Part shown: positions 26,761 through 61,485 of the stretch, piece by piece
Position numbering within the stretch: position 1 is the first letter of the stretch
Layout: every line of letters starts with the position of its first letter
NCBI RefSeq assembly: GCF_018135625.1
Contig: NZ_CP073078.1
Coordinates: 4,124,501 to 4,188,500 of the forward strand
Direction of reading: 5' to 3'
DNA from: Phenylobacterium montanum
GTDB taxonomy: Bacteria; Pseudomonadota; Alphaproteobacteria; Caulobacterales; Caulobacteraceae
DNA length: 64,000 nucleotides
The notes under the pieces: generated by a model
Database searches by the model: none
What the model was told of the DNA's origin: nothing
The model's input: the letters and a program-made list of their open reading frames with translations, nothing else
Position numbers and translations under genes: made by a program

Positions 26761-26844
26761 GGCAGGGATATAGCGCCTCGCGGCGTCTCGCGCATCGCCT
26801 CAGGCTTAACCGACCATTGACCAAAATCAGGCCACGCTCCGGCG

Positions 26845-27522
26845 ATGAGCCAGGGGGAACCCGTCACCAGCTTTGTGCGCGCCGCCCGGGTTCTGGGTGT
26901 GGAGGCCGATTGCGGGCCCGATGCGCTGCAAAAAGCTTTCCGCGCCGCGGTCAAGCGCGCCCATCCCGACCGCCCTGGCGGCGACGCTGCACGGCTGAGG
27001 GCGGTTATCGAGGCGCACGAACTGTTGCGCGGGCGGAGAGAGACATCGCCTGCACCGTCGCCCGCCATCCTGACCATCACGCCGGGCGAGGCGCTCGCCG
27101 GCCTGCGCCGGCCCTTGCCGGCCGCGGACGGAACCATCCGCTTCGCCCGACTGCCTGCGGGCCTACGCGCCGGCGACCGGGTTCGGTTGGGGGCCGAGAT
27201 CCTGACCATCGCCATCAAGAGCCAGGCGGGCTTGTCGGTGATCGGCGACCACCTCTGCCTGAGCATCGAGGTCGAGCCTGCCCTGATGCGCCAGGGCGGC
27301 GAGGTTGGGGTGCAGACCCCCGCCGGTTCCCGCGCCCTGCGCGTCACTCGCCAGGACGCCATCCGCGGCCTCGCTCGCGTGGCCGGCGCGGGCCTGCCGG
27401 CGCGGGGAAGCCGGCCTCAGGGCGACCTCTTGGTGTGGCTGAAGCCCATGGACCTGCCCCAGGCCGGCGAAACCTCGGCCCAGGTCAAGCTGCGCCGCTT
27501 CGCCGCCGCCTGGGCCGCCTAA
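26845..27522 (+). CDS. Minimal J-domain protein with DnaJ C-terminal-like domain
   Basis: A 225-residue protein that starts with a short J-domain: SFVRAARVLGVEADCGPDAL, AFRAAVKRAHPDRPGGDAA, with the Hsp70-stimulating HPD at 40-42. After a short Pro-rich spacer (65-75) the rest resembles one substrate-binding domain of the DnaJ/CbpA C-terminal type (TPGEALAGL.RPLPAADGTIRF.RLPAGLRAGDRVRLG and LRVTRQDAI). There is no Gly/Phe linker and no zinc-finger cysteines (Cys24 is the main cysteine early on). It would act as an Hsp70 co-chaperone with a narrow client (inference). It is divergent from pdxH, and aroC starts 45 bases downstream. Confidence 0.75.
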   Translation: MSQGEPVTSFVRAARVLGVEADCGPDALQKAFRAAVKRAHPDRPGGDAARLRAVIEAHELLRGRRETSPAPSPAILTITPGEALAGLRRPLPAADGTIRFARLPAGLRAGDRVRLGAEILTIAIKSQAGLSVIGDHLCLSIEVEPALMRQGGEVGVQTPAGSRALRVTRQDAIRGLARVAGAGLPARGSRPQGDLLVWLKPMDLPQAGETSAQVKLRRFAAAWAA

Positions 27523-57634: not shown

Positions 57635-58339
57635 TCAGCCCCGCTCGGACAGGCGCTTGGCGATCGCCGCCGCCAGTTCGTCGGCGAAGCCGCCCAGCCG
57701 GTCGGCGAACTTGCCGGCGTCGGCGGAGAACTTGTTGTAGAAGATGTAGGCCGGGATGGCCGCGGCCAGGCCCACGGCGGTGGCGAACAGAGCCTCGGCG
57801 ATCGAGGGGGCCACCACGGCCAGGCTGGTGTTCTTCTGGGCGGCGATCGACTGGAAGGCGTGCATGATGCCCCAGACGGTGCCGAACAGGCCGATGAACG
57901 GCGAGGCGGTGGCGACGATGGCCAGGGAGCTCAACCCCGCCTCGACCCGGGCGCTCTCGCGGGCGACGATGATATCCATGCCGCGGTCGATACGCTGCAT
58001 CAGGAACGCGACCTGGCTTTCGTCCATGGCCGCGCGGCGGCTCTCGCGCCAGGTGCGCATGGCCAGCTGCAGGATGCGCGGCATGGCGCCGGCGGGGTTC
58101 TCGCCGGCCTCGGCGGCGATGTCGTCCAGCGGCCGGCCGGAGCCGACCTTGTCCTCGAACTGGTCGGCTTCCTTGTTCAGGGCCGAGAAGCGGAACCACT
58201 TGTCGATGATCACGGTCCAGGACCACAGCGAGGCAAGGACCAGGCCGACCATCACGCCCTTGACCACCCAGTCGGCGCGCATGAACACCGAAATGATCGA
58301 GAAGTTGTCGCTGCTCAGGGTGCTCTGGACCGCATCCAT
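57635..58339 (-). CDS. tolQ: Biopolymer transporter TolQ (ExbB family)
   Basis: Channel partner of TolR. The 234 residues have three membrane helices: about 23-43 (DWVVKGVMVGLVLASLWSWT), and two after a long cytosolic loop (SLAIVATASPFIGLFGTVWG and SIAEALFATAVGLAAAIPAY), with the ExbB/TolQ signature GLFGTVWGIMHAF. It starts at the ATG at 58339 and follows ybgC after a 68-base gap. Confidence 0.96.
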   Translation of the reverse strand: MDAVQSTLSSDNFSIISVFMRADWVVKGVMVGLVLASLWSWTVIIDKWFRFSALNKEADQFEDKVGSGRPLDDIAAEAGENPAGAMPRILQLAMRTWRESRRAAMDESQVAFLMQRIDRGMDIIVARESARVEAGLSSLAIVATASPFIGLFGTVWGIMHAFQSIAAQKNTSLAVVAPSIAEALFATAVGLAAAIPAYIFYNKFSADAGKFADRLGGFADELAAAIAKRLSERG

Positions 58340-58407: not shown

Positions 58408-58854
58408 CTATTTTGCAAGCCAGGGAGAAATGGCTTCGACCAGACCCGCCGGCGGCTTGCGCGGGCGACCGCTGAGGCTGATGCAGGCGGCCTCGACCGC
58501 GGCCTGAGCGATCAGGGTCTCGGCCCGCAGGATCTTCTGGCTGATCATCAGGCGGGGACCCTTGACGGTGTCATAGGTGGTGCGGACCTCGAGCGCGTCA
58601 TCGATCCGCGCCGGCTGGCGAAAGTCGATGGCCAGGCGCGTGACCACGAAGGCGGCGGGATCGTCGCGCTCCAGGAGGTCGGTATGGCTGACGCCGGCCA
58701 CGCGCAGGAAGTCTGAGCGGCCGCGCTCGAAATAGCGGACATAGTTGGCGTGATAGACCACCCCCGTGAAGTCGGTGTCCTCGTAATAGACGCGGACCGG
58801 CAGCACGTGTTCCCGGCCTTCGAAGATCCCGGCGGTAGGGGCGGTCATGATCAC
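58408..58854 (-). CDS. ybgC: Tol-Pal system-associated acyl-CoA thioesterase YbgC
   Basis: Hot-dog fold thioesterase of 148 residues, with the 4-hydroxybenzoyl-CoA thioesterase active-site segment [20 protein letters not shown] (Asp27), followed by [10 protein letters not shown]. The first gene of the Tol-Pal cluster in many proteobacteria. It overlaps the ruvB stop (ATGA), so the ruvCAB and tol genes are read as one array. Its cellular substrate is unsettled even in E. coli. Confidence 0.93.
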
Positions 58855-59879
58855 TCCCCGTCGAACAGCCCCGCCTGCCCCTTGGGCGCCGGGGGCGGGA
58901 TGAGGCCGATGTGGGTGTAGGCTCTCGCAGCGGCGATGCGGCCGCGGGGGGTGCGCTGGATGAAGCCCTGCTGCATCAGATAGGGCTCGATCACGTCCTC
59001 GACCGCGTCGCGCGCCTCGGCGATGGCGTAGGCCAGGGTCTCGACCCCGGCGGGTCCGCCGCCATAGTGCTCGATCAGGCAGCGCAGGTAGCGGCGGTCG
59101 AGGCTGTCCAGCCCCGCCTCGTCCACCTCGAGCCGGGCCAGGGCGCGCGAGGCGCTGGAACGGTCGATGGCCTTGGCCCCCTCCGCCTCGGAGAAGTCGC
59201 GCACCCGGCGCAAGAGGCGCCCGGCGACGCGGGGCGTGCCGCGCGAGCGGGCGGCGATCTCGGCCGCGCCTTCGGGCGTCAGTTCGGCCCCCATCTTGCG
59301 CGAGGCGTGGTTCAGGACCCGCTGCAGTTCCTCGGGCGTATAGAATTCCAGCCGCAGCGGAATGCCGAAGCGGTCGCGCAAAGGCGTAGCCAGAAGGCCC
59401 GCGCGGGTCGTGGCCGCGACCAGGGTGAAGGGCTCCAGGTCGATGCGGATCGACCGCGCCGAGGGGCCCTCGCCGATGATCAGGTCGAGGACGTGGTCCT
59501 CCATGGCCGGATAGAGGATCTCCTCCACGGTCGAGGCCAGGCGGTGGATCTCGTCGATGAACAGGACGTCGTTGCGTTCGAGATTGGTCAGGATGGCGGC
59601 GAGGTCGCCGGCCTTGGCCAGCACCGGGCCGCTGGTGGCGCGGAAGTTCACGCCAAGCTCGCGGGCGACGATCTGGGCCAGGGTGGTCTTGCCGAGGCCG
59701 GGCGGCCCAAACAGCAGCACGTGGTCCAGGGCCTCGCCGCGGCCACGCGCGGCCTCGATGAAGATCTTCAGATTGGCCTTGATCGGCTCCTGGCCGACGA
59801 ACTCGGCGAAGGTCTGGGGCCGCATGGCGCGGTCGTGGCCTTCGGCCTCCTGCGGCTCGCCGGAGAGAATGCGGGTCAC
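58851..59879 (-). CDS. ruvB: Holliday junction branch migration DNA helicase RuvB
   Basis: AAA+ motor that drives branch migration with RuvA. The 342 residues start at a GTG overlapping the ruvA stop (GTGA). Motifs: [20 protein letters not shown], Walker [13 protein letters not shown] (58-66), Walker [11 protein letters not shown], sensor-1 [12 protein letters not shown] and the winged-helix C-terminal domain with [12 protein letters not shown]. All length and order features match the family. Confidence 0.98.
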
Positions 59880-60487
59880 CGGCCGAGCTCCTGCAGGGCG
59901 GCCTTGATCAGGGCCCGCTCATCGGCGCCCTCGCCCAGGCGGTCCTGGGCCTGCTCCACATGCCTCCGCGCCTGGGCCTCGGCCACGCCCAGGCCCATCA
60001 GGGCCGCGACCGCCTCGCCCGAGGCGGTGGGCTGGGCGGCGGCCCTGGCTGCCAGCGCCGGGACGCCCATGACGGGGCTGTCGCTGATCGGCTTGTCCTT
60101 CAGCTCGGTGATGATGCGCAGGGCCAGCTTCGGCCCTACGCCCTGCGCGCGGCCCACCGCGGCCTTGTCCTCGCGGGCGACGGCGCCGGCCAGTTCGCCC
60201 GGCGTGAGCACGTCCAGCACCCCCAGCGCCGCCTTGGGCCCGACGCCCTGGATGCTCTGCAGGATGACGAAGGCGCGACGCTCCTCGCGGGTCAGAAAGC
60301 CATAGAGGCGTGGGCCGGTGGCCTCGGCCCAGTGATGCTCCACGTGCACCAGGGCCTCGCCCCCCGGCGGCGGCAGGCGCGACAGGGTCTTCGAGCCGCA
60401 GCGGACCACATAGCCCACCCCGCCGACGTCGATCAGCGCCTCTTCCTCGCCAATCTCGGCCACCAGGCCCGTAAGGCGTCCGATCAT
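59876..60487 (-). CDS. ruvA: Holliday junction branch migration protein RuvA
   Basis: Tetrameric junction-binding subunit. The 203 residues have the OB fold ([20 protein letters not shown]), tandem HhH motifs ([17 protein letters not shown] and [19 protein letters not shown]), a flexible linker and domain III ([18 protein letters not shown]). The start overlaps the ruvC stop (ATGA). Confidence 0.97.
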
Positions 60488-60987
60488 GCGGCGGCTCCGA
60501 TGCGGCGCGCTCGGCGGGCATGGGCGTGGGCGATGGCGACGGCCAGGGCGTCGGCGGCGTCGGCCGTCGGGCCGCCGGCGCCGGGCAGGAGGCGGGCGAT
60601 CATGAAGGCGACCTGGTCCTTGTCGGCGCCACCCGTGCCGACCACCGCCTTCTTGACCACCTTGGCGGCGTATTCCGCCACCGGGATGCCGGCCTGGGCG
60701 GGGGCGATCATGGCCGCGGCGCGGGCGTGGCCGAGCTTCAGGGTCGAAGCGCCGTTGGCGGTGGCGAAGGTCTCTTCGATCGCGGCCTCGTGCGGGTGAT
60801 GGGTTTCGACGATGGCGGAGACCTCACGGAACAGCCAGACCAGCCGCTCGGCGAGGGACAGGGTGTCCTTAGGCGCGATCACCCCGTGGGCGATGTGGGT
60901 GAGGCGCGAGCCCTCCACCGACACCACGCCCCAGCCGGTGCGGCGCAGCCCGGGGTCCAGGCCAAGGATGCGAATCGCGTTCGTCAT
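60484..60987 (-). CDS. ruvC: Crossover junction endodeoxyribonuclease RuvC
   Basis: Dimeric resolvase of Holliday junctions. From the ATG at 60987 the 167 residues begin [20 protein letters not shown] (first catalytic Asp); the catalytic Glu lies in [16 protein letters not shown] and the last Asp residues in [17 protein letters not shown] longer in-frame start at 61071 reaches into the AT-rich regulatory region and is rejected. Three CtrA-type boxes lie 54-140 bases upstream. Confidence 0.97.
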
Positions 60988-61040
60988 GTGTTCCCAACCA
61001 TCGCCCGGAGACGGCCTCCTGGCAAAGGCGGATTTTTCGG

Positions 61041-61127
61041 TTAACCAGCCCTTAAAGAACGTGGTTATCAAAAGGTTAAAACAAAGTGTGAACAGGGCCT
61101 GAAAAATTATGGTTAACGACAGGTTAA
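61041..61127. promoter_or_regulatory. Cluster of three CtrA-type binding sites upstream of ruvC
   Basis: TTAACCAGCCCTTAA (61041-61055) and TTAACGACAGGTTAA (61113-61127) are exact TTAA-N7-TTAA sites; TTATCAAAAGGTTAA (61065-61079) has one mismatch. TTAA is otherwise rare in this GC-rich window. The sites lie between divergent ruvC and the small protein gene at 61276, nearer to ruvC. In Caulobacter this spacing is the CtrA consensus; regulation here is inferred. Confidence 0.7.
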
Positions 61128-61275
61128 CGCGTACGGAAGGTGGGATTCTACGTTAACTTTTAAGGGCCTGCCATTTGGGGAGCGGGCGCCTGCCTGTGAC
61201 GTGAGGGTCACAAATGATCCCTGTTTGTTCCGATATCGCTGGCGGGCATGGCGTGCGCGGGCTGGGGCCCCTATC

Positions 61276-61485
61276 ATGCGGCCCATGGAAACCCCGGAAG
61301 AAATCAGAACGCGGTGGCGGTATCTGCGCGACCTGCTCATCGACCAGTTGGGTCGGTTCGAGAGCGGCGCCCTGCGCCTGCACTCCAACGACCTGGACGT
61401 CAGCGTCGGCGCCATCGCCAAGCTGAAGCAGAACATACTCGACTTCGATCAGATGATCTCGAGGAGCGAGGCGCGCGAGCTCTGA
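61276..61485 (+). CDS. Small hypothetical protein
   Basis: A 69-residue protein, MRPMETPEEIRTRW..., rich in charged residues and apparently one helical domain (RYLRDLLIDQLGRFESGAL, RLHSNDLDVSVGAIAKLKQN). No known family comes to mind. Met codons at 61276 and 61285 are both possible starts; an upstream in-frame start at 61201 gives a Cys/Arg-rich, implausible N-terminus. It is divergent from ruvC across the CtrA-type boxes and converges on yebC. Protein-like codon use supports coding. Confidence 0.6.
   Translation: MRPMETPEEIRTRWRYLRDLLIDQLGRFESGALRLHSNDLDVSVGAIAKLKQNILDFDQMISRSEAREL

Follow-up and report, generated by a model that had tools for sequence, protein, structure and literature searches.

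The stretch of DNA between ruvC and a small divergent gene carries several TTAA-N7-TTAA sites, raising the question of which regulator binds them, which gene they control, and to what effect. The sequence-only reading of the window (the whole 64-kb stretch of DNA that was analyzed) had described two exact sites and one with a single mismatch in 61041-61127, additional TTAA tetramers at 61153 and 61160, and a scarcity of TTAA elsewhere. A motif scan bore out the three sites, the additional tetramers are present in the sequence, and 7 of the 26 TTAA tetramers of the window fall within the 123 bp of 61041-61163. The elements are the following:

60487-60987, minus strand: ruvC (Pfam PF02075, E=1.6e-43)
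61041-61055: CtrA-type box 1 (ruvC-proximal), exact TTAA-N7-TTAA, -68 to -54 from the ruvC ATG; TTAACCAGCCCTTAA on the plus strand, TTAAGGGCTGGTTAA on the ruvC strand
61065-61079: CtrA-type box 2, one mismatch (TTAT-N7-TTAA), -92 from the ruvC ATG; TTATCAAAAGGTTAA on the plus strand, TTAACCTTTTGATAA on the ruvC strand
61113-61127: CtrA-type box 3, exact TTAA-N7-TTAA, -140 from the ruvC ATG; TTAACGACAGGTTAA on the plus strand, TTAACCTGTCGTTAA on the ruvC strand, with TTAACCAT (61109-61116) as its ruvC-side half
61153-61163: two extra TTAA half-sites (61153 and 61160), seen in the sequence at a spacing that is not that of CtrA

This clustering exceeds chance expectation. The 64-kb window has four sites with at most one mismatch where 0.49 were expected, a count that 100 shuffles never attained. 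For the local null, we shuffled 61000-61200 (GC 0.50) while preserving its dinucleotide composition: two exact sites were observed against 0.015 expected (P=0.0004), 0.23 sites with at most one mismatch were expected (P=0.003), and seven TTAA tetramers compared with 1.98 expected (P=0.0002). Given seven tetramers, the chance that two pairs fall at the exact CtrA spacing is about 1%. The 5.65 Mb genome contains 22 copies of the exact motif and 20 of its reversed control; a lone exact site therefore says little, and it is clustering and conservation that support the case. The TTAA cluster might instead be a by-product of an AT-rich upstream element, such as a UP element or a MucR-type silencer site, with CtrA uninvolved, a reading that fits both the missing genome-wide enrichment and the 50% GC of this 200-bp stretch within a GC-rich window. 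We regard it as very improbable, given the composition-preserving shuffle, the retention of the box in relatives whose upstream 200 bp have about 60-70% GC, and the preference for the 7-bp spacing over other spacings in the ruvC promoters of the family. The window has a single near-CtrA box outside the ruvC cluster, at 26806-26820 (TTAACCGACCATTGA), between a pdxH-like ORF on the minus strand and a divergent J-domain-like ORF at 26845.

CtrA is known above all as a regulator of replication, division, flagella and pili, and its targets in Caulobacter crescentus include ftsZ and cpaB. The 22 exact sites of this genome form 17 loci, the ruvC promoter included. Four sites lie between hemE (TIGR01464) and a DUF299/PpsR-type gene, in an intergenic region laid out like the replication origin (Cori) of Caulobacter. 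Exact motifs also occur at ccrM (NF050803, under the curated cut-off, yet the best match by far), at ftsZ (TIGR00065), twice between flgB and a divergent FliO/FliP-type pair, and at genes that, from their sequence, we take to be MipZ-like, PodJ-like and CpaB-like. CtrA targets of C. crescentus include ccrM, mipZ, podJ, flagellar genes and hemE, which is close to the origin (PMC4287350, PMC11264516). Since the same motif stands at classic CtrA loci and the genome encodes a canonical CtrA (NF045991, 414 bits), we consider the motif a mark of CtrA in this genome. The earlier interpretation of TTAA-N7-TTAA as a CtrA-type site is thus well supported by these loci, together with the positional conservation of box 1 described below, and CtrA is the likely binder of the boxes upstream of ruvC.

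Comparison with related genomes showed that box 1 is conserved; the sequence-only reading had named a lack of conservation in close relatives among the results that would refute it. The position of the ruvC-proximal box is shared by all five genomes sampled in the genus: in the other four it starts at -65 to -68 from the ruvC ATG, being exact in G001 and G004 and carrying one mismatch in G002 and G003. Among these congeners, boxes 2 and 3 recur with the same spacing only in G003 (L100), which keeps all three boxes at -141/-92/-68, the counterpart of box 3, at -141, having one mismatch and retaining the GTTAACCATAA block; box 2 was not found in the other three congeners. The half-sites at 61153 and 61160 are not kept in G003 in the promoter alignment. 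Blocks common to the aligned promoters are GTTAACCATAA, TTTGTTTTAA, TTTGATAACCA, TTTAAGGG and CTTTGCC.

Across the family, 153 non-identical Caulobacteraceae ruvC promoters were compared, and 51 of them contain, within their last 100 bp, a box that departs from the motif by no more than one base. Identical sequences had been removed, but the remaining ones are related, so the 153 promoters do not count as independent events. The corresponding controls gave 1.5 for shuffles (maximum 4), 0 for the reversed motif, 2-11 for other spacers and 4 for the region from -250 to -150. Exact boxes numbered 11 against 0.05 expected, and one stands at -66 from the ruvC ATG in Caulobacter endophyticus, C. zeae and C. 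radicis. A recognizable box is absent from about two thirds of the ruvC loci of the family, among them those of Brevundimonas-like genomes (g3) and all those sampled in some other genera (g21, 0/6; g15, 0/6 within 100 bp; g13, 0/3), so CtrA control of ruvC is not universal in the family. In other families of the order, a one-mismatch site occurred in only three loci, and we rejected the box as an order-wide trait.

The earlier reading had named either the ruvCAB-tol array or the small divergent gene as the target. The latter is annotated as follows:

61285-61485, plus strand: small divergent gene encoding 66 aa; start at 61276, or at 61285 by homologues

With 10 homologues among 199 family genomes, at 49-71% identity, this is a real gene; its protein fits no Pfam family. 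It is divergent from the array, and box 3 lies 172 bp upstream of its ATG, as would suit control of the small gene by the boxes. However, all three boxes persist in G003, where no homologue of the gene was found (the genome is about 80% complete), none of the ten homologues has a TTAA in its upstream 400 bp, and box 1 keeps its distance to ruvC in genomes that do not have the small gene. We therefore rejected the small gene as the target, deeming such control extremely unlikely; of the two proposed targets the evidence favors the ruvC side, and ruvC is the probable target gene of the boxes. None of the ten homologues is near ruvC, and several (L102-L111) share upstream ATGGCG and TATCAT/TACCGT-like blocks, possibly a promoter of their own.

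The ruvC promoter also contains a LexA operator that the earlier note overlooked, and a degenerate site lies further upstream:

60979-60993, minus strand: LexA (SOS) operator, exact GTTC-N7-GTTC (GAAC-acatgac-GAAC), GAACACATGACGAAC
61079-61093, minus strand: degenerate LexA-like site GTTC-N7-GTTT, one mismatch, sharing one base with box 2; the same in G003

The GAACACATGACGAAC operator spans the ruvC start codon (ATG at 60987-60985, minus strand) and is the sole exact GTTC-N7-GTTC match in the 64-kb window; it is uncertain whether the degenerate sequence is a LexA site. An exact operator is found near the ruvC start in 154 of 174 family loci, most commonly in the form GAACACATGATGAAC, and the genome encodes lexA (TIGR00498, 180 bits). 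For C. crescentus, ruvC is reported to belong to the late SOS genes, with damage-induced, LexA-dependent expression (PMC12700426). A longer, TTG-start ruvC frame running through box 1 (to 61071) was rejected because relatives start at the ATG within GAACACATGACGAAC. Two GANTC (CcrM) sites flank the region, one just within ruvC (60972-60976) and one upstream of the boxes (61144-61148); a GANTC lies within -60 to +30 of the ruvC start in 144 of 153 family loci, mostly right after the LexA operator. Elsewhere in the genome, the lexA promoter (L265:2228-2261) combines an exact LexA box with, at a distance of 4 bp, a CtrA-type box carrying one mismatch, which overlaps a TTGACA-like -35 and recalls the CtrA site predicted at Dinoroseobacter lexA, and recA has neither an exact LexA box nor a CtrA box nearby.

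Relative to the LexA box, the CtrA-type box falls mainly into two position classes, at -59 to -62 (23 loci) or at -42/-43 (20 loci). The sequences of these two position classes differ between Caulobacter-type and Phenylobacterium-type genomes, which suggests either separate gains or a shift maintained by selection. Aligning the 23 promoters of the first class yielded a further conserved element:

61021-61027, minus strand: CTTTGCC element, candidate -10 region; consensus across the 23 promoters with a box at -59 to -62

This element lies 27-29 bp downstream of the 5' end of box 1 and reads CTTTTCC in many Caulobacter. In predivisional cells, CtrA activates from full sites located near -35 (PMC4287350). 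If CTTT(G/T)CC is the -10, box 1 stands at the activating position of CtrA full sites; if it is the -35 instead, box 1 is too far upstream for the usual activation geometry. The only hit of a sigma-70 scan was weak and lay further upstream than the boxes, at 61174-61145.

We consider it probable, with fair confidence, that the 61041-61127 region belongs to the ruvC (ruvCAB) promoter and combines CtrA and LexA sites, with CtrA activating and LexA repressing until damage. The sites, their conserved positions, the genes for CtrA and LexA and the motif at classic CtrA loci are observed; we infer that CtrA binds, when and with which sign it acts, where the -10 lies and what the upstream boxes do. 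Phosphorylated CtrA would occupy box 1 (61041-61055) and most likely activate ruvC from the -35/-40 region, so that the capacity for Holliday-junction resolution would rise in the predivisional cell, and LexA, on the operator over the start codon, would keep ruvC repressed until DNA damage. Boxes 2 and 3 would be a younger extension that probably adjusts how the promoter responds to CtrA, through cooperativity or titration as at pilA.

The sign of the control could also be the reverse: CtrA may bind but repress or merely delay ruvC, with box 1 covering or blocking the promoter and the upstream boxes adding repression, as at hemE or pilA. CtrA represses where its sites overlap the -10, pilA is repressed by upstream sites (PMC4287350, PMC11264516), and the three boxes at ruvC resemble such multi-site promoters. 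We nevertheless consider repression unlikely: in Phenylobacterium-type promoters the box begins about 42 bp before the LexA operator, which suits an activating site at -35 more than one at -10, and the place expected of a -10, 27-29 bp downstream of the box, is taken by the conserved CTTT(G/T)CC.

CtrA control at ruvC may extend along the array, whose further genes are:

59876-60487, minus strand: ruvA (Pfam RuvA_N and RuvA_C), overlapping ruvC by a few bases
58851-59879, minus strand: ruvB, from ORF position and sequence, overlapping ruvA
58408-58854, minus strand: ybgC-like thioesterase gene, an ORF overlapping ruvB
57635-58339, minus strand: tolQ, an ORF and the first gene of the tol array, 68 bp after ybgC

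The sequence-only reading had suggested that envelope constriction might be coupled to the cell cycle in this way; CtrA control would then reach through ruvCAB-ybgC into tolQRAB-pal. The genes from ruvC to ybgC overlap or abut, just 68 bp separate ybgC from tolQ, and the order ruvC-ruvA-ruvB-ybgC-tolQ is kept in 32 named loci of relatives. On the other hand, the ybgC-tolQ gap ranges from 27 to 257 bp in relatives, leaving room for a separate promoter that tol may own. Moreover, tol-pal is expected to be required at all times, which would make read-through controlled purely by CtrA and LexA risky. We hold such an extension to be doubtful, and cell-cycle coupling of tol-pal constriction through the ruvC boxes is only possible.

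The genome of the window (G000) encodes three CtrA proteins, at C1:2088159-2088857 (L266), C1:2416977-2417675 (L271) and C1:1284527-1285207 (L276). The first copy shares 88% identity with the second and 85% with the third, all three exceed the CtrA equivalog cut-off (NF045991), and they have a near-identical recognition-helix stretch and a C-terminal AA. At most one copy was found in each of the four other genomes of the genus, and more than one at the same threshold in just one other of 60 sampled genomes (copies 57-68% identical). In a tree, the paralogues place loosely near the genus, without strong support. One could imagine, although we find it quite improbable, that ruvC integrates several CtrA proteins: the three-box array would read the summed level of the three paralogues, with LexA on the start codon, and cell-cycle stage and damage would jointly set recombination capacity, possibly down to tol-pal.

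The proposed promoter resembles several known systems. It shares with the CtrA-activated full-site promoters of C. crescentus (PMC4287350) the palindromic motif and its spacing, the presence of CtrA, and probably a box near -35 with a conserved element at the -10 place, but its target is a recombination-repair gene with a LexA operator. The C. crescentus pilA promoter, with four CtrA sites (PMC11264516), likewise combines one promoter-proximal site with irregularly spaced upstream ones; the ruvC sites are nearer to the consensus (two are exact), and ruvC is not a polar-organelle gene. In C. crescentus, the same gene is LexA-controlled and has a GTTC-N7-GTTC operator at its start (PMC12700426), in a study whose main text does not mention CtrA, whereas the ruvC analyzed here has a CtrA-type box as well, 62 bp upstream of its operator. 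The CtrA and LexA regulons are also joined in Dinoroseobacter shibae and Rhodobacter, with CtrA predicted at lexA (PMC6473078); in that case CtrA and LexA act for the most part on different genes within a single process, and the main text of the paper is silent on ruv genes.

We found no CtrA-ruvC link in the text of the open papers searched, and ruvC is probably a new predicted CtrA target. The combination of boxes and operator indicates that the gene is probably under both cell-cycle and SOS control. If true, Holliday-junction resolution would be governed by the cell cycle as well as by the SOS response in much of the Caulobacteraceae, and this would offer an explanation of how cells with sister chromosomes could raise their repair capacity ahead of any damage signal.
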